Source: a virus. From it: a stretch of 44,901 nucleotides of DNA. Of the stretch, positions 8,886-37,897 are shown piece by piece. The stretch covers positions 1 through 44,901 of IMG/VR virus record IMGVR_UViG_3300010883_027301; one strand, 5' to 3'. Both the position numbers and the translations under genes were made by a program. Below the pieces are notes generated by a model. The model was given only the letters and a program-made list of their open reading frames with translations, was not told the origin of the DNA and ran no database searches. Numbering within the stretch: position 1 is the first letter of the stretch; every line of letters starts with the position of its first letter.

Positions 8886-8906
8886 CCAATCTTTGCTTTT
8901 TGGTTA
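8883..8906 (+). promoter_or_regulatory. Inverted repeat between tail gene and polymerase-like gene
   Basis: TAACCAA (8883-8889) and TTGGTTA (8900-8906) form a perfect 7-bp stem around a 10-base loop. It includes the stop codon of the upstream gene. No U tract follows, so an intrinsic terminator is unlikely. It could shape the 5' end of the polymerase-like message. Confidence 0.3.
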
Positions 8907-8917
8907 AATTAGAAGTA

Positions 8918-10117: not shown

Positions 10118-10145
10118 GATTGATATTTATTCTAAAGGTGCATCG

Positions 10146-13649: not shown

Positions 13650-14604
13650 AAAAGAGCGTCCCATAGTTTTAGTTGACGCATTAAATTTTTTTATGCGACA
13701 CTTTACTGTTAATCCATCTGTAGGAATGAATGGTCAGCACATTGGAGGGTCTTTAGGTTTTTTAAGAGGCCTTGGATATCTAGCAGATTTGTTAAATCCT
13801 GAATGTGTATACGTTGTTTGGGAAGGTGGAGGCTCTCCGCGGAGAAGGAGTATATTTCCAGAATACAAGAAAAATAAGCGCCCAGTAAAACTAAACAGGT
13901 TTTATGAAGGAGATATTCCAAACACAGTTGAAAATAGAAACTATCAAGTAAATTTAATTGTGAATCTTTTAAAGAGGTCTGGAATAAAACAAATATACAC
14001 TTCAGACTGCGAAGCTGACGATGTTATAGGATATATTTGTAAAAGAGAACTTTTAGAAAAACCAAAAGTTATAGTCTCTTCAGATAAAGATTATTACCAG
14101 TTACTAGAAGATGAAAAAATAAAGATTTGGTCACCCGGACAAAAAGATTTTGTAACTTCCGAAAAAATATTGAAAAAATTTGGTATCACTGCTGCCAACT
14201 TTTGCCTATGTCGGTGCTTTACTGGAGATGGTTCTGATGGGATACCAGGAATAAAAGGTGTAGGCTTTCGTTCTCTAGCCAAACGTTTTCCAGATCTTGC
14301 ATCTTCTGGATCAATGGAAGTAGAAGAAATACTTACTTTAAGTAGGGCAAGGGCAGTTAACAGCAAACTTCAGATTTACCAGAATATCGATAAAGACGAA
14401 GATGTTGTAAAAAGGAATTGGAAGTTAATGTACTTAGATACTTCCAATCTATCTTTTAATCAAGTACAAAAAATAAATAGCCAGTTGGAATCCGATATTC
14501 CAAAAATAGATAAAATGGACTTTATGAGAATTATTCTAAAAGAAGGAATACAAGATTTCGACGTAGAAAAATTTTTCATGAGTATGAAAGCAATGAGTTA
14601 TTAG
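13642..14604 (+). CDS. FEN-type 5'-3' exonuclease (RNase H-like role in phage replication)
   Basis: The metal-binding acidic residues of the 5' nuclease family are present in order: IVLVDALNFF with D12, a basic arch region with SPRRRS and PEYKKNKRP at residues 65-81, CEADDVIGYI at 123-132, VSSDKDYYQLL at 145-155 and the helix-three-turn-helix GDGSDGIPGIKGVG at 195-208. At 320 residues it is the size of T4 RNase H and of the Pol I 5' nuclease domain. It would remove RNA primers and flaps. It overlaps uvsX by 8 bases and is followed by the helicase gene. Identification as a family member is firm; the precise in vivo substrate is inferred. Confidence 0.88.
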   Translation: MNRKERPIVLVDALNFFMRHFTVNPSVGMNGQHIGGSLGFLRGLGYLADLLNPECVYVVWEGGGSPRRRSIFPEYKKNKRPVKLNRFYEGDIPNTVENRNYQVNLIVNLLKRSGIKQIYTSDCEADDVIGYICKRELLEKPKVIVSSDKDYYQLLEDEKIKIWSPGQKDFVTSEKILKKFGITAANFCLCRCFTGDGSDGIPGIKGVGFRSLAKRFPDLASSGSMEVEEILTLSRARAVNSKLQIYQNIDKDEDVVKRNWKLMYLDTSNLSFNQVQKINSQLESDIPKIDKMDFMRIILKEGIQDFDVEKFFMSMKAMSY

Positions 14605-14612
14605 GAGTAACT

Positions 14613-18482: not shown

Positions 18483-18869
18483 ATGGCATATTCACAAAAA
18501 ACAATAGATCATTTTGAAAATCCGCAGAATGTGGGTAGCATGGATCGAAACGATCCTGGTGTAGGCACCGGTATGGTAGGCGCTCCTGCATGCGGCGATG
18601 TAATGAAACTCCAGCTTAAAATTAATGACAGCGGAATTATAGAAGATGCCAAATTTAAAACATTCGGTTGTGGGTCTGCAATTGCATCTAGTTCTTTAAT
18701 TACTAGTATGGTGAAAGGCCAATCTATTGAACAAGCTTTAGAAATATCTAATGCAGACATCGCGAAAGAACTTTCTCTTCCACCAGTAAAAATTCATTGC
18801 TCTGTTTTAGCTGAAGATGCAATTAAAGCTGCAATTAGAGATTATAGGAAAAAACATGACGAAAAATGA
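18483..18869 (+). CDS. iscU: IscU Fe-S cluster scaffold protein
   Basis: The protein is the same length as bacterial IscU and very close to it throughout. GAPACGDVMKLQ carries C37 and D39, KTFGCGSAIASSS carries C63, and LPPVKIHC carries the LPPVK motif (99-103), H105 and C106. All cluster ligands and the chaperone-recognition motif are intact, so it should be a working scaffold. In bacteria IscU receives sulfur from IscS and passes clusters on with HscA/HscB. No iscS, hscA or fdx is in the window, so the phage protein would have to use host partners. A GAAAGG site precedes the ATG. It overlaps the nfu gene by 14 bases. Confidence 0.95.
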   Translation: MAYSQKTIDHFENPQNVGSMDRNDPGVGTGMVGAPACGDVMKLQLKINDSGIIEDAKFKTFGCGSAIASSSLITSMVKGQSIEQALEISNADIAKELSLPPVKIHCSVLAEDAIKAAIRDYRKKHDEK

Positions 18870-22285: not shown

Positions 22286-22372
22286 AAACAACTTTTCGTA
22301 GTTAAAATAAAGCTATGAAGTTTAAGTTACTTAATCTATACGTGCGCCAGCGCAACTATCTAAGTGAGAACT

Positions 22373-23179
22373 ATGCCTGAAGGACCAGAGTGCAGAAGGA
22401 TTGGAGAGTCTCTTGCAAAAGAAGTTTCTAGTAAGACTATAGTGGCCATCGACATCTTAGGAGGCAGGTATACTAAGAAAGAACCGTCTGGTTTATCAGA
22501 TTTGATTTCTGAACTACCGATAGGCGTCGTCGGCGTCGGCGTCCATGGAAAATTTATCTACTGGATTCTTTTTAAGCAATATTCGCTTTGGAACACTTTA
22601 GGTATGAGCGGATATTGGTCTGGAGAAAAGCAAAAGCATTCTCGGATAAAAATTACTTTTTCTGATAAAACAGAAGTTTATTTTAATGACACTGGAAACT
22701 TTGGAACGATTAAATTAGTTAAGGGAAAATCAAACCTCATTAATAAACTTAAATCTCTTGGTCCGGATATGCTTTCTGACGATGTAGAAGATTCTACATT
22801 TTTAGACGCTTTGAGAAAAAAGAATAAACACAACATTTGTAAGGTTCTAATGGATCAAAAAGTTATATCGGGAGTCGGAAACTATGTAAAAGCTGAAGCT
22901 TTATGGCTAGCAAGAATTAATCCAGGTTCTAATGTAGAAGATTTAACTGATGAAAAACTTCTTGATCTTAGCGAAGCTATCAAAAATGTTTTAAAAACTT
23001 CTTATGAAAGTGGAGGAGCAACAATTAAATCTTATAAAAATTTCGATGGCGAAATTGGAGATTTCTCTTCAAGATTTCTTGTTTATAATCAGAAAACTGA
23101 TCCTCACGGAAATAAAGTGATAAAATATAAAACACCTGATGGAAGAACAACACATTGGGTACCAGAAGTTCAAATTTAG
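22373..23179 (+). CDS. Fpg/Nei-family DNA glycosylase with zincless finger
   Basis: The frame allows a GTG at 22364, but members of this family need Pro as residue 2 after Met removal, so ATG 22373 (MPEGPE) is the start. P2 and E3 are the catalytic pair, K60 lies in the VGVHGKF hairpin and a helix-two-turn-helix lies near residues 160-170 (DQKVISGVGNYVKAEALW). The C-terminal beta-hairpin (DPHGNKVIKYK, then DGRTTHW with R258) has the catalytic Arg but none of the four zinc cysteines. This makes it a zincless finger as in NEIL1-type enzymes. It removes oxidised bases, possibly to repair or edit phage or host DNA. Confidence 0.9.
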   Translation: MPEGPECRRIGESLAKEVSSKTIVAIDILGGRYTKKEPSGLSDLISELPIGVVGVGVHGKFIYWILFKQYSLWNTLGMSGYWSGEKQKHSRIKITFSDKTEVYFNDTGNFGTIKLVKGKSNLINKLKSLGPDMLSDDVEDSTFLDALRKKNKHNICKVLMDQKVISGVGNYVKAEALWLARINPGSNVEDLTDEKLLDLSEAIKNVLKTSYESGGATIKSYKNFDGEIGDFSSRFLVYNQKTDPHGNKVIKYKTPDGRTTHWVPEVQI

Positions 23180-24348: not shown

Positions 24349-24581
24349 AAGTTGGTTCCCTTATAGTTTTCGAACAAGAATCTCAAGGATATGATTTTAT
24401 CCAAAATCAGGGAGACCTTTTTAATAATGAATTAGTTAGAATAACCACTGGAACGTGTGGCATAGTTTGTAAAATACAAGAACATCCAGATATGCACATT
24501 AGATTAGCAGAAATGTTGATCGGAAACAAGCTTATATTTGATATTAACTTGAATCAGCTCGAATACAAACTTCTAAATTAA
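24345..24581 (+). CDS. Small beta-barrel-like protein, unknown function
   Basis: 78 residues. It begins MKVGSLIVFEQ and contains TGTCGIVCKIQ and NKLIFDINLNQLEY. This order fits the small SH3-like proteins common in large phages (a G-x-[LI]-[IV] strand, a GIV strand and a final LE strand). It overlaps the J-domain gene by 4 bases (ATGA). Its stop codon is interlocked with the stop of the minus-strand gene at 24578. Confidence 0.5.
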   Translation: MKVGSLIVFEQESQGYDFIQNQGDLFNNELVRITTGTCGIVCKIQEHPDMHIRLAEMLIGNKLIFDINLNQLEYKLLN

Positions 24582-25312
24582 AAACATTCTCTAGCTAAAG
24601 AAACAGAGCCGTCAGAAGAAACTTGGAAAGTTCTTATTTTAACATGTGGATAGTAATCTTGGCATAAGTCTGCAACTGCGTTAATGTTTCCAGAGTTATC
24701 ATCATAAAAATAAACTTCTTCTGGATCGTGTTGATCTATGTAGGATTTCATTATTTTTGCTTTCGCACTTGGACTCCCTCCAGTATCTCCAGCTGTTTGA
24801 ATATTAGCTCCAGAAACACTCAATCCTTGCGATTGCAAAAATTTAGAAATATCTTCTTTGTTAGTAGGTTTTACAGAAGACCCCCTAAGTGAAGCTATAT
24901 TTTCATTTCCAGATCTTGCTGTTATGATCACCACTATTGCTCCTGGCACGCTTTGTGCACTTTTAGCAATATTTATTACACTTGAAATAGGAGAAGTTGA
25001 TTCTAGATTAACGCTTGCAGTTTCTGAAAAATCAAATATATCTTCTAAAGAATTAGAATTTAAATAGTCAGAATCTTCTCTAATTTTTTGTTCATAGCTA
25101 GCAAATTCTTCTGAAGAAAACCAAATTATTTCATTTTCCCCTCCCTTGTTTTCAATAGATTCAAAATCTAAAGAATTATCTAAGATCCAATCTATGAAAG
25201 AAGGATCAGTTTTTCCATCTGGAGTAATTCTTCTAACTCCAATGAGACTTTCAGTCACCGCGAGTGTATCATCAAAGTCAAAAGCAAATATTTTTTTAAT
25301 TTGTGAAGGCAT
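24578..25312 (-). CDS. HAD-superfamily phosphatase
   Basis: The only clearly real gene on the minus strand. FAFDFDDTLAVT holds motif I (D12, D14, T16). IVVIITARSGNENI is the motif II region, with a threonine in the ITAR context. YFYDDNSGNINAV holds the acidic motif IV. A cap-like insertion lies between about residues 25 and 115. This set fits phage HAD proteins that dephosphorylate nucleotides, DNA ends or small metabolites. It meets the gene at 24345 tail to tail with stop codons overlapping at TTAA (24578-24581). The substrate cannot be read from sequence. Confidence 0.75.
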   Translation of the reverse strand: MPSQIKKIFAFDFDDTLAVTESLIGVRRITPDGKTDPSFIDWILDNSLDFESIENKGGENEIIWFSSEEFASYEQKIREDSDYLNSNSLEDIFDFSETASVNLESTSPISSVINIAKSAQSVPGAIVVIITARSGNENIASLRGSSVKPTNKEDISKFLQSQGLSVSGANIQTAGDTGGSPSAKAKIMKSYIDQHDPEEVYFYDDNSGNINAVADLCQDYYPHVKIRTFQVSSDGSVSLARECF

Positions 25313-25687: not shown

Positions 25688-25696
25688 TGATATAAT
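25688..25696 (+). promoter_or_regulatory. Extended -10 promoter before the DnaE-type polymerase gene
   Basis: TGATATAAT (TG-N-TATAAT) is a perfect extended -10 element. A transcription start would fall near 25703, and AGAGGTAGG at 25707-25715 would then serve the TTG start at 25722. The same layout occurs at 38480. There is no good -35, as is usual for extended -10 promoters. Confidence 0.65.
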
Positions 25697-25721
25697 GAAA
25701 TATATCAGAGGTAGGTTTAAA

Positions 25722-28700
25722 TTGAAAGTCCCCAGTAAGTTTTTTGGTTTGCATTCTCATTCAGGTTTTTCCATTTTCGATGGGCTTGGATATCCACAAG
25801 AGCACATCGATTTTTGTAGAAAGAATGGTTTAGATGGATGGTCTTTAACAGACCATGGCCATATGAATGGTTTTGCACATGCATATTTACATACAGAGAA
25901 GCTAAATAAAGCTGGTGGTAATTTCAAACTTATTCCAGGTTGCGAAATGTATGTGCACCCTGATTTAGACGTTTGGAAATTAGACTATGAAATTTCTAGA
26001 ACAGCTAAAAAAGGCGACAAAGAAGCCTTAGCTATTCTAAAAAAGCAAAGAGAATTAATTCAAACTCCGCTTTTAGCTTTTGTAGATGAGCATGATGAAA
26101 CTTTAAAAGTCGGACTAAAAGATGCTTCTCTCACTGTAGAAAATGAAGAAGAGACTAAATCTGCCAAGTTTTATGACCCCATTAAGCGCCGCCACCATCT
26201 AGTAGTTTTACCAAAGACTTCCGAAGGCTTACAGAGATTATTCCACTTGGTTTCTCGTGGATACACAGAAGGATTTTATAGATTTCCAAGAGTAGACTAT
26301 AAAATGCTAAAAGAAGCCGCTAAGGGAGGTCATCTAATGGTTTCTACAGCTTGCATTGGTGGCCCATTAGCTTATGATGTTTTCCAACCACTGCAAGAAA
26401 CTAATTTTGATGATCTTGTTCCATCTCTTTTTGATGATGAGTCTTTAAGAAACAAAATTCTTTCTAAGTTTGAATATTCTTATGACCAACTTGCAGATGC
26501 AGTTGGTGAAGAAAATGTAATGCTAGAATTGCAATTTAATAAATTGCCAGCTCAGCACTTGGTGAATAGAGCTATTTTAGAATTTGCAAGAACTCGTTCT
26601 TTAACAGACCAGCTTGTAGTTACTTGCGATTCACATTATGCTTCTCCAGATCACTGGAAAGAAAGAGAGCTATATAAAAAGCTTGGATGGTTAAACTACC
26701 AAAGCTTTAATCCAGATAATTTGCCTAAATCTAAAGAAGAGCTTAAATGCGAACTATATCCCAAAAACGCAAAGCAGGTTTGGGAATCATATCTTGAAAC
26801 TACTTCTGAGCATAACTTCTACGATGGAGATGAGATATTTGATGCCATTGAAAGAACTCATGATATAGCTCATGAAATGATTGGCGAGCTCCATCCAGAC
26901 CGTAAAATGAAACTTCCATCTTATGTAGTTCCAAAGGGTATGACTGCCAACAAAGCGCTTCTAGAAGCGGTTAAATCTGGTTTGGTAAAACGAGGCTTAG
27001 CTGAAAAGCCGGAATATGTAGAAAGAATGAGAACTGAATTAAAAGTTATCTTTGAAAAGAACTTTTCTGAATATTTTCTTACGATGAAGTCTATTATCGA
27101 TCTAGCGCGTGAGAAAATGTTAGCCGGCCCTGGTCGCGGATCTGGTGCTGGCTCTTTAGTAAATTACGCATTATACATTACAGATATAGACCCCGTAGAA
27201 TATGGGCTACTTTTTGAGAGATTTATGTCTCCAGAAAGAACTGAGATGCCAGATATCGATACAGACATTGCCGACCGCGATGAGCTTATCAAAATTCTTA
27301 GAGAAAAATTTGGCAACATGAATGTAATTCCAATCTCAAACTATAACACGTTTAAAATTAAGAGCCTTCTTAAAGACGTTTCTAGATTTTATGGGATTGA
27401 ATTTTCTGAAGTAAATAAAACATTAGCATCTTTAGAGAGAGAGGTGTCTCAAGGCAGAAAAGCTGATGGAGTAGATGCAGCTTTTGATATTAGCTTTGAA
27501 GAAGCTAAAAAGTATTCTACGAAGGTTAGTGACTATTTAGAAAAATATCCACAAATTGCTGCGCCTATAAACGTTCTATATAAGCAGAATAAAGCTCTTG
27601 GAAGACATGCTGGCGGCGTGATTGTTTCTGAAAGAATTGCAGAGAGAATGCCCTTGATTGTTGCTAGAGGAGAAATGCAAACTCCGTGGACTGAAGGGAT
27701 GACTAATAAACATCTTGAGGAATTTGGGTGGATTAAATTTGATTTGCTTGGTTTAGAAACTCTTAGGATTATTGAAAGAACCATTTCTCTTGTTTTGCAA
27801 AAATCAGGCATAGAGAATCCATCGTTTGAGCAAATTGTAGAGTGGTACAGTAAAAATATATCTCCAAACGTGATAGATTTTAATGACAAAAAAGTGTATA
27901 AAAATGTTTATCATTCTGGCCGATGGGCTGGTATCTTTCAATGTACTCAAAGAGGCGCTCAAGCTCTTTTTAAGAGGGCTAAACCAGAATCAGTGGTAGA
28001 TCTAGCAACTCTTACCTCTATTTATCGGCCTGGTCCGCTATCTGCAAAAGTAGATAAGCTTTATATTAAAGCTAAAAACAATCCTGAAAATGTTTTTTAT
28101 GGACACCCTTTAATCGAGCAAGTTCTTAATTCAACTTATGGAATGATTATTTTTCAAGAACAAGTAATGGAACTATGCCACGTGGTAGCAGGCTTTCCAA
28201 AAGCAGAATGTAACAAGCTTAGAAAGATGATGAAGCCAGTTAGTTCTGGAAATGAAAATATAAAGGCAGCTTCAGCTCTAAAGAGTAAGTTTGTAGAAGG
28301 AGCTGCTCAGAATGGAGTAAATCAAAGTATAGCTAGCGAACTTTATGACAGAGTTCTATATTTTAGTGGTTATGGTTTTAATAAGTCTCATGCTGTTTCT
28401 TATGCAGTCAATTCTTATCACTGCGCTTGGTTGATGACTTATTATGAGCAGGAGTGGATCCAAGCTTATCTTGAAGCTTGCTCTGGTAATCCCAAAAAGC
28501 TCTCAAAAGCTTTGAGCGAAGTAAAAGCTTTGGGCTATAAAATTGTTCCAATCGATATTAATAAAGCTGAAAAAGCTTGGACATGTATTGATGATAATTC
28601 TTTGATGCCATCATTTCTTTCATGCAAAGGTGTGGGAGAAGCCGCGGTAGAAGAAATTTTAAAAAATAGACCATATTCGTCAATTGAAAATATGCTTTGG

Positions 28701-29321
28701 AAAGAAGATGGAAGTTGGAAACATGCAAAATTTAATAAAAGAGCAATTGAATCTTTGATGAAAATTAGAGCTTTTGATTCTCTTGACTGTGTTGGTGAAG
28801 ACAAGACTTTTAAAAGCTATTCTCATATGCATTCTGTAGTTATGGAAAATTTTAATGATATTAGAAAGAGAACAAAGAAAGATCCATATAGAGGAAAAAA
28901 CAACTTTTTTAAAGCCTTGGTAGAATCTCCAGAATCTGAAGAATGGTCTTTCGATGCTTTGATGAATTTTGAAGAAGAATTGTTAGGGACAATTAACGTA
29001 GAAGCTCTTCTTCCAGAGAAATTTGTAAAAAAGATGACTGAAAAGAACATTCACTCTCTAGATGATCACTCAGGTAAAGAATATTATTGGTTCGTTCTTA
29101 CTAAAGCCATTCCAAAGCTCACAAAAAACAAGAAACCATATCTGCTTTTAAATGGAATAGCTTCAACTGGAAAGGTTCATAGGATGTTTTGTTGGGGGGT
29201 TCCAAAAGATGCTGACATCCTTCCATTCACTTTTTGTATTGCCGAAGTAGATAAAAATGATTTTGGAATGTCTACTAAATGGAACAGAGTTAAAAAGTTT
29301 AGTTTTAATGATCTGACTTGA
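25722..29321 (+). CDS. Family C DNA polymerase III alpha-like subunit (DnaE-type)
   Basis: The order is PHP, palm, fingers and tail, as in DnaE. The PHP domain has LHSHSGFSIFDG and SLTDHG near the N-terminus. GPGRGSGAGSLVNY lies near residue 467. PDIDTDI near 510-516 carries the two catalytic Asp, and KFDLLGL further on carries the third. FNKSHAVSYA and the helix-hairpin-helix-like CKGVGEAAVEEIL follow. At 1199 residues it is close to bacterial DnaE. I prefer the TTG at 25722, because the ATG at 25695 overlaps a perfect -10 box while TTG has a strong ribosome site 6 bases upstream. No clamp, loader or proofreading subunit is visible in this window. It is probably the main replicative polymerase, and a second polymerase-like gene lies at 8918. 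Confidence 0.88.
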   Translation: MKVPSKFFGLHSHSGFSIFDGLGYPQEHIDFCRKNGLDGWSLTDHGHMNGFAHAYLHTEKLNKAGGNFKLIPGCEMYVHPDLDVWKLDYEISRTAKKGDKEALAILKKQRELIQTPLLAFVDEHDETLKVGLKDASLTVENEEETKSAKFYDPIKRRHHLVVLPKTSEGLQRLFHLVSRGYTEGFYRFPRVDYKMLKEAAKGGHLMVSTACIGGPLAYDVFQPLQETNFDDLVPSLFDDESLRNKILSKFEYSYDQLADAVGEENVMLELQFNKLPAQHLVNRAILEFARTRSLTDQLVVTCDSHYASPDHWKERELYKKLGWLNYQSFNPDNLPKSKEELKCELYPKNAKQVWESYLETTSEHNFYDGDEIFDAIERTHDIAHEMIGELHPDRKMKLPSYVVPKGMTANKALLEAVKSGLVKRGLAEKPEYVERMRTELKVIFEKNFSEYFLTMKSIIDLAREKMLAGPGRGSGAGSLVNYALYITDIDPVEYGLLFERFMSPERTEMPDIDTDIADRDELIKILREKFGNMNVIPISNYNTFKIKSLLKDVSRFYGIEFSEVNKTLASLEREVSQGRKADGVDAAFDISFEEAKKYSTKVSDYLEKYPQIAAPINVLYKQNKALGRHAGGVIVSERIAERMPLIVARGEMQTPWTEGMTNKHLEEFGWIKFDLLGLETLRIIERTISLVLQKSGIENPSFEQIVEWYSKNISPNVIDFNDKKVYKNVYHSGRWAGIFQCTQRGAQALFKRAKPESVVDLATLTSIYRPGPLSAKVDKLYIKAKNNPENVFYGHPLIEQVLNSTYGMIIFQEQVMELCHVVAGFPKAECNKLRKMMKPVSSGNENIKAASALKSKFVEGAAQNGVNQSIASELYDRVLYFSGYGFNKSHAVSYAVNSYHCAWLMTYYEQEWIQAYLEACSGNPKKLSKALSEVKALGYKIVPIDINKAEKAWTCIDDNSLMPSFLSCKGVGEAAVEEILKNRPYSSIENMLWKEDGSWKHAKFNKRAIESLMKIRAFDSLDCVGEDKTFKSYSHMHSVVMENFNDIRKRTKKDPYRGKNNFFKALVESPESEEWSFDALMNFEEELLGTINVEALLPEKFVKKMTEKNIHSLDDHSGKEYYWFVLTKAIPKLTKNKKPYLLLNGIASTGKVHRMFCWGVPKDADILPFTFCIAEVDKNDFGMSTKWNRVKKFSFNDLT

Positions 29322-29364: not shown

Positions 29365-30213
29365 ATGAATACACGGTACAAAAATTTAAATCAAGCTTTT
29401 GTAGAAGAATTAGCTGATTGTTGCTATAATGGAGTAGAGGTAAAAAGTCGGGGCTTTGTTCAAAAAGAAAAACTTTTTGCTTCTTTCATCATTCAAGATC
29501 CAACCGACTTGAGAATCGAAGTTCCAGCTCGAAAATTTAATGAAGAATATGCAATTCTTGAATGGCTTTGGTATTTGACTTCTGATTCTAAAATTGAAAC
29601 TATAGGTAAATTTGCTGATATTTGGAATAAAATATCAGATGATAATGATACAGTAGAATCTAATTACGGAAAATATTTAAAGCCTCACTGGTATGATTTA
29701 GTTGATGAGCTTTTAAAAGATAGAGATACTCGTCGTGCTACGTGCGTAATAAATCAACCATATCATAGGTTCAAGAATCCGAAAGATTATCCATGCACAC
29801 ACTATATTCACTTCTTTATTAGAGAAGATGCTCTTCACATGGGCGTATATATGCGGTCTAATGATGCCGTTTTTGGATTTTGCAATGATGTTTTTACTTT
29901 TGCATTATTCCAACAACTGATGTTAAATGAACTAAATGCTCGCGGCTCTAATCTTACACTAGGAAACTATTATCACTCTGCAGGCAGCTTCCATGTTTAT
30001 GATAGGCATTATGCAATGATGGAAAAAATATCTGAAAATTATTTTAAGAAAGCTAGAAAAAGTGGTTATCCTACCAACTTGAAAAAAGTGGTTTTAGATC
30101 CGGATTTAACGTGGCCAAAAATGGAAAACTTTATATCTTTTTTTAACGAAGAATTAGACAAAGAAGAAGTTTTGAATAAGATTAAGAAGATAAAAGAGGT
30201 TATATTCAAGTGA
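29365..30213 (+). CDS. Thymidylate synthase-family enzyme resembling T4 dCMP hydroxymethylase (gp42)
   Basis: Residues DTRRATC (121-127), YPCTHYIHF with C144, YMRSNDAVFGFCND (162-175) and GSFHVYDRHY match the ThyA fold. The nucleophile is C144. At the position that is Asn in thymidylate synthase (selecting dUMP), this protein has Asp (D175 in FGFCND). T4 gp42 has the same context (FGFRND, D179), which selects dCMP. The protein is therefore better read as a dCMP hydroxymethylase or other dCMP-specific methylene transferase than as ThyA. If so, phage DNA may contain hydroxymethylcytosine or a derivative. It opens a run of nucleotide-metabolism and modification genes. Confidence 0.78.
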   Translation: MNTRYKNLNQAFVEELADCCYNGVEVKSRGFVQKEKLFASFIIQDPTDLRIEVPARKFNEEYAILEWLWYLTSDSKIETIGKFADIWNKISDDNDTVESNYGKYLKPHWYDLVDELLKDRDTRRATCVINQPYHRFKNPKDYPCTHYIHFFIREDALHMGVYMRSNDAVFGFCNDVFTFALFQQLMLNELNARGSNLTLGNYYHSAGSFHVYDRHYAMMEKISENYFKKARKSGYPTNLKKVVLDPDLTWPKMENFISFFNEELDKEEVLNKIKKIKEVIFK

Positions 30214-30491
30214 ATATTTTAGAAAAAGCTAATGAAATAATCAACAGTCGCTCTGAAGAAAAAGAGAGGCAGTATGGTCCAATGGGCGAAGGCTTAGAAC
30301 GCGCTGCTCTAATAGCTTCTGGAATGACTGGAAAAGACTTTACTGCAGATGATATTTTTGCTACTTTAGTAGCTCTTAAATTTTCTCGTCACTCTTACAA
30401 TTACAAAGAAGATAACTTTTTAGATGCTGCCGCTTATTTGGGGGCATGGAATGATTACGTACAGGAGAAATTGAAAAGTGAAAATAAGTAA
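30210..30491 (+). CDS. MazG-like / DUF6378-like nucleotide pyrophosphohydrolase candidate
   Basis: GTG start, overlapping the upstream gene by 4 bases. The 93-residue helical protein has EKERQYGPMGEG, ATLVALKFSRHSYNYKEDNFLDAAAYLGAWNDY. This ERQYG, LK-x-x-R and KEDN-x-x-D pattern is that of short MazG-like phage proteins, which bind metal and hydrolyse nucleoside triphosphates. Placement between a dCMP hydroxymethylase-like gene and dUTPase suggests nucleotide pool cleaning, for example removal of unmodified dCTP. Substrate is not known. Confidence 0.6.
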   Translation: MNILEKANEIINSRSEEKERQYGPMGEGLERAALIASGMTGKDFTADDIFATLVALKFSRHSYNYKEDNFLDAAAYLGAWNDYVQEKLKSENK

Positions 30492-30912
30492 AGTTAGAAA
30501 AGTTAAAACGCCTGTTCGCGGAACTCCAGAATCAGCTGGAATAGATTTTTTTGTTCCCAGTGGTGTTCAAGCAAAACTAAAGCCTGGAGATTCTTGTTTA
30601 CTACCAAGCGGAATTAAAGTTGATGTCCCTTCTGGCCACGCTCTAATAGCTTTTAATAAAAGCGGAGTAGCAGTTAAGAAAAGTCTTTATGCTGGCGCTT
30701 GCGTAGTAGACGAAGACTATCAGGGAGAAATTCACATCAATCTTACTAATGTGGGTTGTGAAGAAGTTGAAATAAGTTCAGGTGAAAAAATAATTCAGTT
30801 TATTTTACTTCCCGTTTTTTATGACACAATTGAAGAAGTAGAGCTAGAAAATCTTTATGCAGAAGTAACTGCTAGAGGCGAAGGCGGCTTTGGTAGTACG
30901 GGAGTAGAATAA
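30478..30912 (+). CDS. dut: dUTP diphosphatase (trimeric type)
   Basis: GTG start with AGGAG 10 bases upstream, overlapping the previous gene by 14 bases. The dUTPase motifs are in order: PESAGIDFF (motif 1), AFNKSGVAVKK (motif 2), AGACVVDEDYQGEIHINLTN (motif 3), EKIIQFILLPV (motif 4) and GEGGFGSTG (motif 5, C-terminal arm). At 144 residues it is full length. It turns dUTP into dUMP, keeping uracil out of DNA and feeding thymidylate synthesis. It fits the neighbouring deaminase and kinase genes. Confidence 0.92.
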   Translation: MKISKVRKVKTPVRGTPESAGIDFFVPSGVQAKLKPGDSCLLPSGIKVDVPSGHALIAFNKSGVAVKKSLYAGACVVDEDYQGEIHINLTNVGCEEVEISSGEKIIQFILLPVFYDTIEEVELENLYAEVTARGEGGFGSTGVE

Positions 30913-31976
30913 TGAACTATTTTATAGATTGCAATGTTCCTAAAAACTTTAAAATTGGAATTGATGGATTAGAAAGAAATGTGCCGGCTAGAAAACATAG
31001 TCATAATGCAGCTTGGGTTCATCTTTATAAAAATATGCTTCAGTCGGCTGGTTGGGAAGATGTTCATATCCTTAGCAACCACGACACTTATGCAGGTTAT
31101 GATGCAATGATTTTTTATCCCGGTATTGCTTATGCTGGAACAATTAACTTCTTTTTTGGTGCCGATGATAATGTTGTACGTCGATTTTCTAGAATTCAAG
31201 ATTTCAAAGGCCCAACGTTCATTTTAAATCATGATATGCCGCTTATAGGAACTACAATAAAAGGTCGCCTCCATAATAAATCTACTAGCTCTAAAGTTGG
31301 AAATTTAAAATTAGAAATTCTTGATGATATTTGCAAAAGCACCACAAGGATAGATTGCGTAGAAAAATCTACTAAATTGTGCTTCGGAGATAGCCACTGC
31401 TTTTCTACATATTTGCCAGGATATTCAGTTTGCCGAAATGATGGCTTGACGCTATATTCAACTTTAAGAGATGGAGTAAAGCAAATTATAGAAGATAATT
31501 CTGAAATGCTGGTGAAAAATTTAACTCATCTTACTTTTTATATGGGAAATATTGATATTCGCCATCATTTAATGAGACAAGAAAAACCAAATGACCAACT
31601 CCGCGGAATGGCCATTGAATTAGGCGAACAACTTAAATCTTTAAATATTTCTAATATTGAAATAGTGCATGCTTTGCCTATAGAAAATGAAAGTAGGAAA
31701 CTTCCAAAAACTGGATATTTTAAAGGTACTCCATTTTATGGCACTAAAGAAGAAAGATCAAGTCTTGTCAATACATTCAACACTGAAGTTGATAGAATTT
31801 GTATAGAAAATGGTTGGTCTGTTTTTAAGTGGCCAAAAGAATTCCTCAATGAAGAAGATGAGCTTGATTTTGAATATATGGAAAGGCCAAAAAGCGTTCA
31901 TTTAAGTCCCACTTCTTATCGATGGGATCTTTTTAATAATAGTTTGAATATAAAACACAAAAATAACGGAGAATAA
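30912..31976 (+). CDS. SGNH/GDSL-like hydrolase
   Basis: The ATG overlaps the dut stop by 1 base. The N-terminal 150 residues form an alpha/beta segment. Then CFGDSHCFST (GDSH at 159-162) gives the block I serine, YMGNIDIRHHL resembles block III with Gly and Asn, and the final PKSVHLSPTSYRW provides the block V histidine. These fit an SGNH esterase or acyltransferase fold. Similar proteins with a GDSH motif are seen in glycan and modification clusters of large phages. The substrate is not predictable. The next gene starts 1 base after the stop. Confidence 0.6.
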   Translation: MNYFIDCNVPKNFKIGIDGLERNVPARKHSHNAAWVHLYKNMLQSAGWEDVHILSNHDTYAGYDAMIFYPGIAYAGTINFFFGADDNVVRRFSRIQDFKGPTFILNHDMPLIGTTIKGRLHNKSTSSKVGNLKLEILDDICKSTTRIDCVEKSTKLCFGDSHCFSTYLPGYSVCRNDGLTLYSTLRDGVKQIIEDNSEMLVKNLTHLTFYMGNIDIRHHLMRQEKPNDQLRGMAIELGEQLKSLNISNIEIVHALPIENESRKLPKTGYFKGTPFYGTKEERSSLVNTFNTEVDRICIENGWSVFKWPKEFLNEEDELDFEYMERPKSVHLSPTSYRWDLFNNSLNIKHKNNGE

Positions 31977-31977
31977 T

Positions 31978-33168
31978 GTGTCTAAAAATAAATCAATCAG
32001 AGTAGCAATAGTTGGAGTTGGCAATTGCGCTAATTCTTTCTATCAAGGACTAACATATTACGCTGGATATACAGCAGGACAAGAACGCGACGGAATTATG
32101 AAAAGTCGAATTGGAGGTTATTCAGTCGCAGATCTTAAAGTGGTCGCAGCTTTTGATGTTGATAAAAGAAAAGTTGGAAAATGCTTTAGAGAAGCAATGA
32201 GAGCAAAACCTAATTGCACTCCGACTTATGAGCAAAACGTTCCCGACGGCCCGATTGTTCAAATGGGTCCAATTATGGACGGTGTTCCATCTCTTATGAG
32301 AGATTATCCAGATGATGAAGCTTTTCGTGTGGCAGATTTAGAGCCCGTAGATGTAACTCAGATTCTTATTGATGAGCAAGTTGATATTCTAATCAACTAC
32401 TTACCAGTAGGTTCTCAGAAAGCCACTGAGTACTATGCTGAAGCTTGCTTAGACGCTAGAGTTTCTCTTTTGAACTGTATTCCAGTTTTTATTGCATCTA
32501 ATCCTAAATGGGAGCAGCGTTTTATTGATGCTGGAATTCCATTAATTGGCGATGATATGAAATCTCAATTTGGGGCTTCTATTCTTTCTCAAATGCTCCA
32601 AGAGCTTGCATTTGCTCGTGGATTAAACGTCAATGCGCATATTCAACGTAACGTTGGAGGGAATACAGACTTTTTGAATATGGTTGATCAATCAAGGTTA
32701 AAGTATAAGAAGGTTTCAAAGGAAAATGTAATTCGCTCTCAACACATTATTAGAGGCGTGGATCCAGAAGAATCTTTCTTGCACGCTGGACCGTCTGAAT
32801 ATATTCGTTATTACAAAGATAATAAAGTTGCAAATTTTCGAATTGAAATGGAGGGATTTCTTGGAGCTCCAGTTATTTTAGATGCTCAACTTTCAGTAAT
32901 TGATTCACCAAACTCCGGTGGTGTTGTTATAGATGCAGCGAGATATTTGAAAGTTGCTAGAGAAATGGGAATAGTTGGAGCGCTTAGAGGACCGTCAGCA
33001 TTTACTCAAAAGACACCACCCCAACAACTCATGTTTTCAGAAACTCTTTATGAGTGTGATGCTCTTTCTGAAAGAAAGCTTACAAGATTTACTCGCAGGC
33101 AAACTGAAAAATATAGCGCTAAAGAACTGTACAGCGCGTGTCCAGCTGGAAATAAGGAAATTGACTAA
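31978..33168 (+). CDS. ino1: myo-Inositol-1-phosphate (inositol-3-phosphate) synthase
   Basis: GTG start with GGAG upstream. VAIVGVGNCANS (10-20) is the NAD-binding Rossmann loop. GDDMKSQFGA (191-200) and QRNVGGNTDFLNM further on are diagnostic for inositol-phosphate synthase, the latter containing conserved Asn and Asp around the active site. At 396 residues it matches the short bacterial/archaeal form rather than the 500-residue eukaryotic one. It converts glucose-6-phosphate to inositol phosphate with NAD. It lies among sugar and DNA-modification genes. A role in making an inositol-derived precursor, for DNA or surface glycan or for phospholipid, is inference. Presence in a phage is unusual. 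Confidence 0.88.
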   Translation: MSKNKSIRVAIVGVGNCANSFYQGLTYYAGYTAGQERDGIMKSRIGGYSVADLKVVAAFDVDKRKVGKCFREAMRAKPNCTPTYEQNVPDGPIVQMGPIMDGVPSLMRDYPDDEAFRVADLEPVDVTQILIDEQVDILINYLPVGSQKATEYYAEACLDARVSLLNCIPVFIASNPKWEQRFIDAGIPLIGDDMKSQFGASILSQMLQELAFARGLNVNAHIQRNVGGNTDFLNMVDQSRLKYKKVSKENVIRSQHIIRGVDPEESFLHAGPSEYIRYYKDNKVANFRIEMEGFLGAPVILDAQLSVIDSPNSGGVVIDAARYLKVAREMGIVGALRGPSAFTQKTPPQQLMFSETLYECDALSERKLTRFTRRQTEKYSAKELYSACPAGNKEID

Positions 33169-33884
33169 TGGCAAAACTGCACGACCAAAAAGGGAAACTT
33201 TTTAATCCAGATTCTGGAAATTTTGAAGAGTGTGTAATAAAGTTTAATGGTAGAAATGGCTTTTGGTACCGACCAGGCACTTTTGACTTAAATTCTATAA
33301 GGGAATGCAGAGACAATTATAGCGATATTGACACATGCGGAAAAACAGTTTTAGACTTAGGAGCTAATATAGGGGGGTTTTCAAAAATGGCGCTACAAAA
33401 AGGAGCTAAGAAATTAATAGCTTTAGAGCCATGTCCTTATAATTTTCAAATTCTAGAAATTAATGCTCCAAACGCAGAATGTTTTAATGCCGCAGTTTGT
33501 GAAAGCGAATTAGAAGAAGTGGTTTTTCATTACGCTGGATCTAAAAGAAACTCTGTTTCTTCTTCTACGCTTAAACGAAGAAATGCTTCTGGCGTCTCTA
33601 TTTCTGTTCCAGGTCTCTCTTTTTCAGGTCTTTTAGAAAAATACAAGCCAGAAATACTAAAGATAGATATTGAAGGAAAAGAGTACGATATTTTAGATTC
33701 TATTGATAAAATTCCAGACTTTGTAGAAATAGTGGGAATTGAATTTCATAATACTCGTAAACCCTACTCAGAATATCCGCTTCGTTTTTTTCCAGAGGCA
33801 GATTGGAAAAAAGTAGAGCACCCAATTCTAATGTTCGGCCAAAAGAAAGTCTTAGACTACACTTTTTATCGCAAACATATCTAA
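33168..33884 (+). CDS. FkbM-family SAM methyltransferase
   Basis: VLDLGANIGGFS is the SAM-binding motif I, and LIALEPCPYNFQILEIN supplies the acidic residue of the next strand. LKIDIEGKEYDIL and VGIEFHN are the conserved FkbM segments. At 238 residues it is typical. Members O-methylate sugars and other small molecules. ATG overlaps the stop of the inositol synthase gene by 1 base, so the two are probably made together. The natural acceptor is unknown; inositol or a DNA-linked sugar would fit the context. Confidence 0.8.
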   Translation: MAKLHDQKGKLFNPDSGNFEECVIKFNGRNGFWYRPGTFDLNSIRECRDNYSDIDTCGKTVLDLGANIGGFSKMALQKGAKKLIALEPCPYNFQILEINAPNAECFNAAVCESELEEVVFHYAGSKRNSVSSSTLKRRNASGVSISVPGLSFSGLLEKYKPEILKIDIEGKEYDILDSIDKIPDFVEIVGIEFHNTRKPYSEYPLRFFPEADWKKVEHPILMFGQKKVLDYTFYRKHI

Positions 33885-33893
33885 GGAGGACAA

Positions 33894-34310
33894 GTGACAG
33901 TAAACGCTTTTGATATTGATGGAGTAATCCATTTGGGAGATGGAGTCTGCGGAATTCATCCTGGGCCTAGCGATGTGATAATCACTGGCCGAAGTTTTGA
34001 AGAAGAGGCTGAGACCCTAGCTTTTCTCCACAGAAATGGAATTCATAATCCAGTATTTTTTAATCAGTGCCACTATGAAGACAAGACACGCAAAAGCTCT
34101 GGTTGGCATAAAGGAGAAACTATTAAATTGCTCCATCGAGCTGGATTGAGTATTCAATATTTTTTTGAAGACGATGAAGTTCAAAAATCTGAAATTGAAA
34201 GAAAGTTAGAGGAAGTTTCGGTTTGGAATATCGGCACTAAAGTAATTCATGTCAATAATCCGAACGTTAAAAAAGAGAACCGTCGCCATTTAGAGGATTT
34301 AGATGAGTAG
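33894..34310 (+). CDS. Small HAD-like phosphatase
   Basis: GTG start with a strong AAGGAGG site. AFDIDGVIHLG holds the DxDGV motif I (D7, D9). SDVIITGRSF is the motif II region and YFFEDDEVQ resembles the acidic C-terminal motif. At 138 residues it lacks a cap domain. It is likely to dephosphorylate a small metabolite. Lying two genes after inositol-phosphate synthase, it could supply the inositol monophosphatase step, but that is inference. Confidence 0.65.
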   Translation: MTVNAFDIDGVIHLGDGVCGIHPGPSDVIITGRSFEEEAETLAFLHRNGIHNPVFFNQCHYEDKTRKSSGWHKGETIKLLHRAGLSIQYFFEDDEVQKSEIERKLEEVSVWNIGTKVIHVNNPNVKKENRRHLEDLDE

Positions 34311-35748
34311 TTCTGAACTTCTTAAGATGACTGATAAACAACTGTTCGATGAGATTCCTTCTCACAAAAAGCAGGACTTTGTAGATTTTATAAAAGAGCT
34401 TAATCGAAGAGAGTATCTAGTAAGGTTTGCAAAATCGTGCACTTTTGAAACATTTCAGCATTTGCCTAACGAATCTTTAAAGTTTGGTAGTGGATTTATC
34501 GTAAATGGAAAATCAGTACCTTATTTCCACCCTAATCGTAGTTTTCATGACGAGATTATTTGGTTGAATGAGAACCTATTTTATAATCCCCAAGCGACAT
34601 TTGAAGATAAGCTTATTAATGCAGCTATCATTAAATTCTATGGCCCATCTAACACTCTTAAGCTTATATCTGCTAACACAGGAAAGAATTTTGTAGACTA
34701 TAAGAAGTTTATTAGTAGTCCAAAGTATCTAAAGAAGATTTGTGTAAATCTAGAAACTGCTGTTAAAAATAAAGAAAAAATTTATGGCACAACTGAACTT
34801 AGAACAAGCCTTCAAACGGCAGCTAGAAATTATGCTAGAGATGTTGGATCTCCAATAGACAAAATTGAATTAATTTCGAAAGCTGATAGAAAAGTTCGAA
34901 CATGCCGCTCTTCTGATATTTTGTTTTGGTTTACTAAAATAGGTCCAGATTTTGTTAATTTTTATAAGCAAACTCCAAATATGGAAGAGTCTTTTAATTT
35001 TCTAAATTCTTTTAGAGGGATTGGAAATTATTATGGTTATCACTTTAGTTGTAACTTAGCTCGCATGCCAGAAGTTGGAAACTTGATATTTCAAGGCTCG
35101 CCCGGCCGTATTAACGAAGACGATGAATATGTTGTCCCGGGCGTCGGCGCGATGGCTGCCATAAATTGGTTTTATGAGCATCGAGGGCATTCTATAAACA
35201 CTAAAGTCGGAAAAAAATTAATAAATGCTATTAGAAAGCATCAAAATAGTTTCTTTGATTTAAAAAAATCAGATAATTCTAAATTTTATATGGAAAAAGT
35301 TTCTGAACTTGGATATTTTACTAATTTTGGTTGTGAAATATCTTGCTGCCAGTTCGGAGTTTATCGAAGATTAAGAGAAGATAAAAAATTAGCTTTAAGA
35401 AGAGCAGCTGCACCAATTTCAAAAGAGGAAGTCAAAATGATTCTTACACCCAAAACATTAATGCAAAAATTAGGGCTTATTTCAGAAGATAAGCCAATCA
35501 AAAAAGAACTAGAAATTAAGTCTCCAACACTAGATTTTTCTTCTACTAGTAAAGAAGATTTAATTCTTAATATTGTAGATCAGTCTGGCGAGGCATGTTC
35601 TCATTCATTAGTCGCTAAGCTAATTGAAGAAAAAGGATATACTCAATACAAACAAGAGGGATCTTGGAAAGAGAGTTGGGTTATAATGAGAGACCTTGTT
35701 GAAAAGGGTGCTTTAGTAAAAGACGGAAAGTTTTACCGGAGGCCGTAA
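34303..35748 (+). CDS. Protein resembling AADT / alpha-glutamyl-putrescinyl-thymine pyrophosphorylase-like helical fold
   Basis: The 481-residue protein has a long helical N-terminal part. Its core SFRGIGNYYGYHFSCNLAR (about 236-254) and NEDDEYVVPGVGAMAAINW (271-289) match, by eye, the GIG helix-hairpin-helix and GPGA-type motifs of the DNA glycosylase-like families described in hypermodified phages. Those families include amino-acid:DNA transferase and alpha-glutamyl/putrescinyl thymine pyrophosphorylase. A C-terminal winged-helix-like segment (about 415-481) follows. ATG overlaps the HAD gene by 8 bases and its stop overlaps the next start by 1 base. This is a best guess from remembered motifs. 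An unrelated HhH nucleic-acid protein remains possible. Confidence 0.55.
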   Translation: MSSSELLKMTDKQLFDEIPSHKKQDFVDFIKELNRREYLVRFAKSCTFETFQHLPNESLKFGSGFIVNGKSVPYFHPNRSFHDEIIWLNENLFYNPQATFEDKLINAAIIKFYGPSNTLKLISANTGKNFVDYKKFISSPKYLKKICVNLETAVKNKEKIYGTTELRTSLQTAARNYARDVGSPIDKIELISKADRKVRTCRSSDILFWFTKIGPDFVNFYKQTPNMEESFNFLNSFRGIGNYYGYHFSCNLARMPEVGNLIFQGSPGRINEDDEYVVPGVGAMAAINWFYEHRGHSINTKVGKKLINAIRKHQNSFFDLKKSDNSKFYMEKVSELGYFTNFGCEISCCQFGVYRRLREDKKLALRRAAAPISKEEVKMILTPKTLMQKLGLISEDKPIKKELEIKSPTLDFSSTSKEDLILNIVDQSGEACSHSLVAKLIEEKGYTQYKQEGSWKESWVIMRDLVEKGALVKDGKFYRRP

Positions 35749-36926
35749 TGCCAGAAGTTAAATGGGGAACTATTATCCCTCTTATTGGTGGCAGTGCTAT
35801 AGGATGTTCTCAAGCGACTAAAAATAGACCAAAGTTTCATCTTAGCTACTCTGCTTTTTCTGCAAATGAAAAATATCTTACAGATTACTGGAAAGATGTT
35901 CCTCGCATTGTTTTAGATGAGGGCGGAAAAATTCCAAATGAAGAAATAGATTTCATAAACTCTGTATGTCCTTGCGCTGGATTAAGCCAGTTAAGTACTT
36001 CACGCAGTATAGAAAAGAGAGAAGAGCAAAACTATTGGATGTATGAATCTTCTAATAGAATTCTAGGCGATGTTCGCCCAAAAGTTTACTGGGGCGAAAA
36101 TGCTCCCGGCCTTTTTACTAATTCAGGCGCGTACGTAAGAGATAAATTAAAGGATCTTGCTCTTAAATACGGGTATACTTTTTCTCTATATAAAACAGAT
36201 ACGCAGAGACATGGTATACCACAGCGCAGAGTTAGAACTTTCTATTTTTTTTGGAGAGATACCAATCCGCCCTTGCTAAACTACTTTAATCAGCCAATGC
36301 CAACTTTTGCTGACTATATTAAAGAGATACCAAGCTCAGCATCTCTACAAGACAAGTTTAATATAGAGGGTAAAATTTCTGATAACTTTGATTCTTATGC
36401 TTTTATTTTGCAGCGCTTAAATATTGACCATAATTCTTTTGTTAAGAACAATGATGGCGGATCAATACACTCAGTTTATTCTTATCTAGCAGAAAACAAT
36501 ATTCTAAAAGAGTGTATTGAGTGGATTGAAAAAAATAAGCTAGAAGAAACTGCTGAGCATAGAAGGCTTAAGTCAATTTATAAAAAAGTTCAGTCAGGCG
36601 GCCGGTTTATGGATGCTTCTCCTGGATATTATTATCGTAGAACTAATGCAATAGTGGGTAGAACTTTAACCCATCTTATTCATCCAACAGAAGATCGTGG
36701 TATGTCTATTAGAGAACTTCTTCACATGATGGGACTACCACATGATTTTGAAATGAGCGATAGGAAATCTTTAAATGCAATTGCTCAAAATGTTCCAACA
36801 TGTACAGCTCGAGATATGGCTAGTCAAGTTATTGAATATTTAAACAACGACTTACAAATTGCAGAAAATAGTTTTTTAATGCAAAATAACCTAAAAGAGG
36901 AAATTACATTATGCGAGCGCTTGTAA
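35748..36926 (+). CDS. Cytosine-C5-methyltransferase-like protein
   Basis: The motifs are in family order. A motif I-like segment PLIGGSAIGCSQA lies at about 11-23. VCPCAGLS has catalytic-type P75-C76. ENAPGLF is motif VI. QRHGIPQRRVRTF is motif VIII. SIRELLHMMGLPHDF and IAQNVPTCTARDMASQV are motifs IX and X. The catalytic Cys and the QRxxR residues are present, so it may be active. The target-recognition region between motifs VIII and IX is about 130 residues. It overlaps the gene upstream by 1 base and the epimerase by 16. It may modify DNA cytosine. If the phage DNA carries hydroxymethylcytosine, its role needs a different explanation. Confidence 0.7.
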   Translation: MPEVKWGTIIPLIGGSAIGCSQATKNRPKFHLSYSAFSANEKYLTDYWKDVPRIVLDEGGKIPNEEIDFINSVCPCAGLSQLSTSRSIEKREEQNYWMYESSNRILGDVRPKVYWGENAPGLFTNSGAYVRDKLKDLALKYGYTFSLYKTDTQRHGIPQRRVRTFYFFWRDTNPPLLNYFNQPMPTFADYIKEIPSSASLQDKFNIEGKISDNFDSYAFILQRLNIDHNSFVKNNDGGSIHSVYSYLAENNILKECIEWIEKNKLEETAEHRRLKSIYKKVQSGGRFMDASPGYYYRRTNAIVGRTLTHLIHPTEDRGMSIRELLHMMGLPHDFEMSDRKSLNAIAQNVPTCTARDMASQVIEYLNNDLQIAENSFLMQNNLKEEITLCERL

Positions 36927-37897
36927 CAGGTGGATGCGGATTTATTGGATCGTGTCTTACAAAAAAATTAGTAGACTTAGGATGGGATGTTGAAATTGTT
37001 GATGATATGTCAAATGGAGATTATTCTTTTTTAGGTGATTATTCGTTTAGAACAATACCAGTTCAGCTTGGACATATTTACGATAGTCAAAATCTAAAAA
37101 AAGAAAGAGATATAACAATTCTAGTTGGAGATTTTGTAAGCAAAGAAATTATTCGTAGAATTATAGAAAAAAAATACGATATAATCTTTCACTTTGCAGC
37201 AAATCCAAGAGTAGAGTATTCTGTGCAAAACCCATTAGAAACCACTGATGAAAATTTGACAAAAACTATACGACTTTTTACCCATGCGGTTGGAAATGTT
37301 AAAAGAATAGTTTTTTCTTCTAGTTGTTCAATCTATGGTGATCCATGGACTCTCCCAACTACAGAAAATCATGGTAAAAATCCGAATAGCCCATATGCTC
37401 TTCAAAAACAATGCGTGGAAGAATACTCCAAGCTTTATTCTAAGATTTATGATTTAGACATAGCTTGTCTAAGATACTTTAACGTGTATGGACCTAATCA
37501 ATACGGGGACTCTCCATACTCTACAGCCATTGTTTCTTGGTGCGATAAAGTATCTAAAGGCCTTCCTTTAAGAAGTGACGGAGATGGCACGCAGTCTAGA
37601 GATATGGTATTTGTAGAAGACGTAGCTAGAGCTAATATATTAGCCGCCACTAGAGAAGAAAACTTTGGCGGAAAATGTATAAACATTGGAAGCGGAACTT
37701 CGTATACAAACAATCAAATTTTAGATATTTTTAAAAATAAATTTGGAAGTCTAGAAATAGTTCACGCTCCAGAAAGGCTTGGAGACGTAAAGCATACGCA
37801 AGCAGAAACTAGAGAAGCAAAAAATGCACTGGGATTTCAAACTGAGTATACTTTAGAAGAAGGATTGAAAAAGACGTTTTTATGGTGGGAGCTTTAA
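36911..37897 (+). CDS. NAD-dependent epimerase/dehydratase (extended SDR, GalE/RmlB-like)
   Basis: TGGCGFIG is the NAD-binding loop, FHFAANPRV the conserved strand, SSSCSIYGD carries the catalytic Ser and YALQK (162-166) the Tyr-Lys pair. RYFNVYGPNQ and RDMVFVEDVARA complete the extended SDR signature. At 328 residues it is full length. It acts on a nucleotide sugar, as epimerase or dehydratase, which supports sugar-based modification or glycan work in this gene block. AAGAGG precedes the ATG. Confidence 0.88.
   Translation: MRALVTGGCGFIGSCLTKKLVDLGWDVEIVDDMSNGDYSFLGDYSFRTIPVQLGHIYDSQNLKKERDITILVGDFVSKEIIRRIIEKKYDIIFHFAANPRVEYSVQNPLETTDENLTKTIRLFTHAVGNVKRIVFSSSCSIYGDPWTLPTTENHGKNPNSPYALQKQCVEEYSKLYSKIYDLDIACLRYFNVYGPNQYGDSPYSTAIVSWCDKVSKGLPLRSDGDGTQSRDMVFVEDVARANILAATREENFGGKCINIGSGTSYTNNQILDIFKNKFGSLEIVHAPERLGDVKHTQAETREAKNALGFQTEYTLEEGLKKTFLWWEL

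Follow-up and report, generated by a model that had tools for sequence, protein, structure and literature searches.

Why should a phage encode, back to back, a protein resembling the helical enzymes of DNA hypermodification and an unusual relative of the cytosine-C5-methyltransferases (C5-MTases)? The question is posed by two plus-strand genes of the viral record IMGVR_UViG_3300010883_027301, the whole 44,901-nucleotide stretch of which is referred to here as the window. An initial annotation had taken them for a coupled pair that could carry out a cytosine-directed hypermodification. The coordinates it gave for the open reading frames (ORFs) were exact (34303–35748, 481 aa, and 35748–36926, 392 aa), and both are genes: 20 shuffled versions of the window gave no stop-free frame longer than 159 codons, and close homologues of both proteins (metagenomic relatives) are 71–89% identical. 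The cytosine-derived target held up, given an enzyme of the deoxycytidine monophosphate (dCMP) hydroxymethylase type in the same operon; the pair as a functional unit did not. The real unit comprises a myo-inositol-3-phosphate synthase (MIPS), a HAD-type phosphatase, the helical protein and an SGNH-fold protein; the C5-MTase homologue, itself non-standard, is an optional partner. This probable 5-hydroxymethylcytosine (hmC) module would be a newly recognised variant of phage DNA hypermodification.

Which genes belong together was read from loci collected in helical-protein profile searches (79, later 92 in all; loci carry L numbers below), dereplicated to 30 lineages by clustering that protein at 80% identity. 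MIPS accompanied it in 29 lineages, HAD in 27, SGNH in 27 (the fused Aeromonas version described below being counted additionally), the C5-MTase homologue in 15 and an FkbM-family protein in 13. As gene order varies among the lineages, this linkage is selected. The co-occurrence across phages that would be expected of the original pair was indeed found, both genes being together in distant phages (35 loci, 15/30 lineages). The shared base between them (TAATG at 35746–35750) is also real, but as the sign of joint use for which it had been taken it has little weight: overlaps of exactly one base occur at 4 of the 14 junctions of the operon, TAATG is not more frequent in the window than in shuffled sequence, and the helical and C5-MTase genes of L012, a related phage, are separated by two others (290 and 288 aa). 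The one-base overlaps elsewhere and the split pair rule out TAATG as evidence of joint function. The first gene of the L012 insert (8264–9999) encodes a sulfotransferase (PF03567 Sulfotransfer_2, 1.8e-9), the second opens with a similar HIPKCGG motif, and a further ORF (14080–14805) resembles this sulfotransferase-type pair; L012 might possibly produce a sulfated variant of the modification. The cassette of the window consists of the following genes.

29365–30213, plus strand: dCMP hydroxymethylase-type enzyme (PF00303; closest solved structures CMP 5-hydroxymethylase MilA and T4 dCMP hydroxymethylase; motifs YPCTH and GFCND)
30210–30491, plus strand: small DUF6378 protein (PF19905), in the same gene order in relatives
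30478–30912, plus strand: dUTPase-like gene, cassette-conserved, its homologue in phage Mendera being annotated as deoxyuridine triphosphatase
30912–31976, plus strand: SGNH-fold protein (GDSH, GNIDIRHH, VHL), homologue of the N-half of ORF233c of Aeromonas phages 44RR/31
31978–33168, plus strand: MIPS/Ino1 (1.3e-87 to the solved inositol-3-phosphate synthase 1gr0; PF01658)
33168–33884, plus strand: FkbM-family methyltransferase (PF05050; TIGR01444 above cut-off)
33894–34310, plus strand: small HAD-type phosphatase (phrog_415, 1e-7; DIDGV, TGRS, HKGETIKLL, EDDEV)
34303–35748, plus strand: helical protein of the HMUDK_hel superfamily (PF18723, 9.8e-8; phrog_17781 residues 384–779, 1.1e-88)
35748–36926, plus strand: divergent C5-MTase homologue (PF00145, 1.7e-19), catalytic motifs retained and cofactor motifs replaced
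36911–37897, plus strand: NAD-dependent nucleotide-sugar epimerase (PF01370, 5e-47), present in the cassette of close relatives

Elsewhere among phages, MIPS is uncommon (18 of 50,697 records, namely Menderavirus and Caulobacter phage Cr30), and in both groups a HAD homologue again adjoins it. These phages lack a PF18723 protein and their MIPS is a bona fide Ino1 homologue, which would suit the alternative that MIPS, HAD and FkbM serve the inositol metabolism of the host as auxiliary metabolic genes and are located beside DNA-modification genes by chance. However, MIPS is retained in nearly every helical-protein lineage despite otherwise different gene orders, and in Cr30, too, it adjoins DNA-modification genes, so that such a coincidence is considered quite unlikely. 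The Cr30 locus (L016, 6729–8866) encodes an ADDT-family protein (PF18724, 1.3e-52) next to a TAGT-like glycosyltransferase, with MIPS directly downstream.

The base to be modified can be narrowed down from the thymidylate-synthase-like protein at the head of the cassette, to which CMP/dCMP hydroxymethylases are closest among solved structures. It contains the catalytic cysteine (YPCTH), and an aspartate (GFCND), aligned with that of T4 gp42, replaces the asparagine of thymidylate synthase. The same dCMP-type aspartate was found in every readable hydroxymethylase-type homologue of module or C5-MTase loci (three were unreadable or truncated), and not the deoxyuridine monophosphate (dUMP) hydroxymethylase characteristic of genomes with 5-hydroxymethyldeoxyuridine (5-hmdU); an ordinary thymidylate synthase is often additionally present in the larger genomes. 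Since the hydroxymethylases are cytosine-type wherever readable, the predicted target is hmC and not 5-hydroxymethyluracil (hmU).

PF18723 proteins were first described in hmU pathways. The placement of the 481-aa protein in this superfamily of helical DNA-hypermodification proteins was borne out (32.1 bits at a cut-off of 25, over residues 88–357); its relatives mostly score 44–59 bits and an Ackermannvirus member 4.6e-82, and in the Ackermannvirus Serratia phage 3M the PF18723 protein stands alone. The "GIG" motif noticed initially is GIGNYYGYH at residue 239 (G239/G241 invariant in 10 homologues), the "GPGA-like" one is PGVGA at residue 279 (G280/G282 invariant), and GTTELRTSLQT and GCEISCCQ are conserved as well. 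In contrast, assignment to the ADDT/AADT family had to be abandoned, as PF18724 gave no match at E≤1 while recovering the Cr30 control. Over most of its length, the protein has a homologue in the C-terminal half of phrog_17781, a 795-aa protein of Aeromonas phages 44RR/31 that is itself uncharacterised; a C-terminal extra stretch (~residues 415–481), probably a winged helix, is restricted to the window's group. No kinase family matched the protein, which accordingly lacks the ATP-binding kinase domain of the 5-hmdU DNA kinases, and its only Walker-A-like string, GFIVNGKS, was ruled out as a kinase motif, being present in only 13 of 89 homologues and in a low-confidence loop. Relatives' genomes searched for a second PF18723 copy had one each. 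Among 29 pattern matches in a bacterial genome collection only one was a true relative, on a short metagenome-assembled contig; the system is therefore essentially viral.

Weak matches of the helical protein to the FokI recognition domain (E 0.07) and, locally, to the DpnI winged helix could, together with the TAATG coupling, be taken to mean that the two proteins form a restriction-modification or anti-defence pair and not a hypermodification step. Both matches are insignificant, and a restriction-enzyme reading of the 481-aa protein was rejected. Its linkage is instead to MIPS, SGNH, HAD and hydroxymethylase genes, PADLOC returned no match for it, and its relatives bear polymerase-type tails (see below); the pair is thus very improbable as a defence or anti-defence system.

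The SGNH protein matches phrog_17781 over its residues 11–335 (32% by tblastn), and its AlphaFold model (predicted local distance difference test, pLDDT, 82.8) resembles GDSL/SGNH hydrolases (GDSL-like lipases) with a Foldseek probability of 1.00. Both the GDS nucleophile block and the fold are thus those of the family, with GDSH and His330 invariant. Sequence searches of the PDB with helical and SGNH profiles gave no match. SGNH genes also occur in other settings. In Aeromonas phage 25 (L013, 4731–8002), one is accompanied by a UDP-galactopyranose mutase and an unknown 358-aa protein, a set possibly serving a galactofuranose-type hmC decoration. L088 (4691–8731) combines SGNH with unclassified proteins of 383, 339 and 300 aa (no Pfam match) and a C5-MTase homologue beside a dCMP hydroxymethylase, and may represent another hmC pathway.

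When would the helical, SGNH and C5-MTase proteins act? In phages with family-B polymerases, their C-termini carry a short hydrophobic motif resembling the T4 clamp peptides (gp43 SLDFLFG, gp55 SLDFLYE). After dereplication, such tails were present in 21/30 helical, 16/25 SGNH and 12/15 C5-MTase proteins versus 14% of other ORFs (Fisher p = 1e-11, 2e-8 and 2e-8, respectively), without excess in the metabolic enzymes (1/29 MIPS, 5/27 HAD). A strict pattern gave 39/109, 11/86 and 9/92 versus 10/1897 other ORFs, the latter including two DNA polymerases, and none in the metabolic families. It was predicted before looking that each phage's polymerase bears the tail variant of its enzymes. This was observed in L060 (polymerase VQSLLSF; enzymes SLLEF, TLLSF and KLFNF), L033 (RLLSFD; GLLEF, ALLSF), L142 (ATLDSFF; TIEGFFL, NLESFF, TIVDFMQ), L101 (STSLF; SCLF, NTLF), L165 (SLKAFF; LSKYF, SLKNF) and L139 (VNSIVQF; KQIIQF, NKIVTF). 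When polymerases were shuffled among genomes, the pairing was rarely matched (p = 0.0002), and with one genome per clade (5 clades), the true pairing ranked best of 120; because some tails were already known when the pattern and the permutation score were settled, all these p-values should be read as guides. In T4, the C-terminal clamp motifs of gp43, gp55 and gp33 can substitute for one another (PMC2988020), and the α-glucosyltransferase (alpha-GT) binds gp45 (PMC13216743). The match of the tails to the phage's own polymerase suggests that the three proteins act post-replicatively, on polymerised DNA, and in the tailed relatives presumably at the fork.

Similar tails were seen on further proteins. 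That of the Cr30 TAGT-like glycosyltransferase (DLSKLF) resembles the tail of its own polymerase (DLSSLFD), and the phage 25 SGNH protein ends in TLELFDI, similar to the LFDMFDI at the end of the polymerase of phage 31, a related phage. In Stenotrophomonas phage Mendera (L015, 11488–12699), a 403-aa protein amid queuosine-type genes ends in NSLDDLFG (polymerase SLEDLFG) and is a candidate for another DNA-modification enzyme with a clamp tail. Neither a B polymerase nor a recognisable gp45/PF09116 clamp was found in the window's clade, which encodes its own DnaE-like protein (25695–29321, read from sequence); its helical protein bears the extra C-terminal stretch instead of a tail.

What, then, does the C5-MTase homologue contribute? 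Relatives are encoded by more than 550 IMG/VR stretches, and a dCMP hydroxymethylase-type gene is present in 20 of the 25 loci having 8 kb on both sides. The motifs initially reported are there: the catalytic cysteine (CPCAGLS from residue 74 on), ENAPG and QRRVR (within PQRRVR), and motifs IV (PC), VI (EN) and VIII (QxRxR) are retained in 23/23 aligned members. Compared with Dcm and phage C5-MTases, however, the motif I that binds S-adenosylmethionine (SAM), FxGxGG, is replaced by (I/V)PL(I/V)GG, and motif X, GN(A/S)VP, by (A/C)QNVP (its register resting on the alignment), both in 23/23 aligned members, and PCQ of motif IV by PCA across the family (VCS in XG4). In M.HhaI numbering, the changes are Q82 to A and N304 to Q, the very positions (in motifs IV and X, common to C5-MTases) whose side chains were shortened by engineers to accommodate bulky groups (PMC10666283).

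The enzyme could nevertheless be an ordinary SAM-dependent C5-MTase guarding residual cytosines, its adjacency to the helical protein being incidental. PF00145 scores above cut-off, the PC, EN and QxRxR motifs are retained, the homologue often occurs without a helical protein, and PADLOC lists it as Type II MTase-like. Yet, the family-wide replacement of motifs I and X and of the motif IV glutamine, the frequent company of a hydroxymethylase and a TIGR00675 score of 40, far below the cut-off of 100.65, render this explanation unlikely. Because the standard cofactor motifs are lost, ordinary SAM methylation is doubtful. Given also the M.HhaI engineering and the fact that C5-MTases couple thiols to hmC without SAM (PMC7176277), the protein probably acts on hmC by some reaction other than methylation. 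A protein of Bacillus phage G (gp301, L017), whose gene is near glucosyltransferase and nucleotidyltransferase genes, has PCSGLS, ENAP and AQGVP in common with this divergent family.

Taking together gene content and linkage, the cytosine-type hydroxymethylase, the polymerase-shared tails, the SGNH fold and the altered C5-MTase motifs, we think it rather probable that the cassette hypermodifies hmC with a cyclitol derived from the MIPS reaction. The hydroxymethylase would produce hydroxymethyl-dCMP before replication, to be polymerised into DNA. MIPS would convert glucose-6-phosphate to inositol-3-phosphate. This compound or a related intermediate would probably lose its phosphate through the HAD phosphatase, and O-methylation of the cyclitol by the FkbM enzyme is possible. 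After polymerisation, the helical and SGNH proteins, tethered in many relatives at the replication fork by the polymerase-type clamp tail, would attach the cyclitol, as inositol or inositol phosphate, to hmC at its hydroxymethyl group. The C5-MTase homologue would flip the base, its cysteine attacking C6 as usual, and most likely activate or exchange a 5-CH2-X group or transfer a non-methyl group, not a SAM methyl. The full version, namely inositol (or a phosphate or O-methyl derivative) on hmC, installed at the fork by a transferase of helical and SGNH proteins that the clamp tethers there, joined in half of the lineages by a non-SAM C5-MTase homologue, is put forward as tentative. In the literature searched, no description of hmC-cyclitol chemistry and nothing linking MIPS to phage DNA modification was found, and the helical-protein family is not mentioned in the MetaGPA study of modified cytosines.

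Usual hmC glycosylation would explain part of these data differently: the helical and SGNH proteins would have accessory roles in base flipping, sugar trimming or acylation, and an unusual sugar donor fed by MIPS would be used by a separate glycosyltransferase. A GT4 glycosyltransferase does adjoin the helical protein in some module loci (L030, L033, L060), non-module C5-MTase loci often contain AGT-like, TAGT-like or GT10-like genes, and phage 25 has its SGNH with UDP-galactopyranose mutase. In the window cassette, however, a family-profile search recognised no glycosyltransferase, MIPS accompanies the helical protein in all but one of the 30 lineages, and no homologues of the T4 glucosyltransferases are present in 44RR/31 (PMC2993671); we therefore do not expect glycosylation to be the answer, despite its real points of support.

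Several observations weigh against the cyclitol module. We infer the cyclitol donor, the helical and SGNH reactions, the role of the C5-MTase homologue and the product from sequence; that this homologue no longer uses SAM is a prediction from its motif changes, short of proof. In the cassette, no kinase or other activating enzyme was identified by which hmC could acquire a leaving group. A usable fold match for the helical protein, the structural comparison envisaged at the outset, was not obtained (weak AlphaFold model, pLDDT 65.7; nothing significant in Foldseek, best E 1.2), and therefore no claim is based on the fold comparison of this protein. The window's clade is devoid of clamp tails, which limits the predicted tether to relatives with B polymerases. 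SGNH is found without the helical protein and MIPS in L013 and L088, the C5-MTase homologue occurs mostly outside the module, several records are fragmentary, and many loci are near-identical (hence the dereplication at 80%). Finally, a MIPS match is absent from all 19 Aeromonas records in which SGNH and helical protein form a single polypeptide, as in ORF233c of 44RR/31. Exactly the same 19 records carry, directly upstream of the fusion, a gene for a vSGLT-like sodium/sugar symporter (8801–10324 in phage 31, L001; ORF234c in 44RR), the closest solved relatives of which are sodium/glucose cotransporters. It is possible that this symporter is an import route replacing MIPS synthesis, and making and importing a polyol look like alternatives; its cargo could instead be glucose or galactose.

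Some further genes of the window are unusual phage cargo, as judged by eye: an Fpg/Nei-like DNA glycosylase (22364–23179, MPEGPE start) and an IscU/NifU-like iron-sulfur scaffold protein (18483–18869). A lone minus-strand gene (24578–25312; HAD-like by eye, DFDDT motif) lies amid a plus-strand region.

How does the cassette relate to known systems? With the 5-hmdU pathway of the ViI/M6/PhiW-14 type, it shares a premade hydroxymethyl-pyrimidine elaborated in DNA and a homologous PF18723 protein. It is nevertheless separate from the hmU pathways because of the dCMP-type aspartate of its hydroxymethylase; moreover, the window has neither kinase domain nor ADDT, its obligate-looking partners are MIPS, HAD and SGNH, and in place of an amino acid, a cyclitol is the probable donor. 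In T4 (gp42, alpha-GT, beta-GT), hmC likewise stems from a dCMP hydroxymethylase and is decorated in DNA, and the clamp binding of alpha-GT (PMC13216743) parallels that predicted for the tailed enzymes. In contrast to T4, the cassette contains no recognised glucosyltransferase homologue, the folds differ, and three unrelated enzymes bear polymerase-type tails. RB69 is another example of alternative hmC decoration in T4-like phages without glucosyltransferases (arabinosyl-hmC; PMC6024577), although via an arabinosyltransferase pathway instead of a helical/SGNH/MIPS cassette. M.HhaI and Dcm share with the C5-MTase homologue the fold and the catalytic Cys/Glu/Arg motifs, and SAM-free thiol attachment to hmC is a reaction of which C5-MTases are capable (PMC7176277); motifs I, X and PCQ are replaced throughout the phage family. 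Aeromonas 44RR/31 have the SGNH and helical parts fused (~32% and 41% identical), but with the symporter and without C5-MTase homologue or MIPS match.

Whether hmC phages lacking glucosyltransferases, such as Aeromonas 44RR/31, decorate hmC otherwise was left open by a review of 2010 (PMC2993671). The helical/SGNH cassette is a specific gene candidate for this 44RR-type protection, and as 44RR and 31 are cultured, the reading is directly testable. The large family of C5-MTase homologues, with natural changes like those engineered into M.HhaI, is a possible source of DNA-labelling enzymes. The tails offer a general recognition rule, namely that DNA-acting modification enzymes end in the same clamp peptide as the polymerase of their phage. 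For the phages themselves, the module would do for hmC what the known hypermodification pathways do for hmU, and would be widespread; its donor enzyme, MIPS, is not linked to DNA modification in the literature found.

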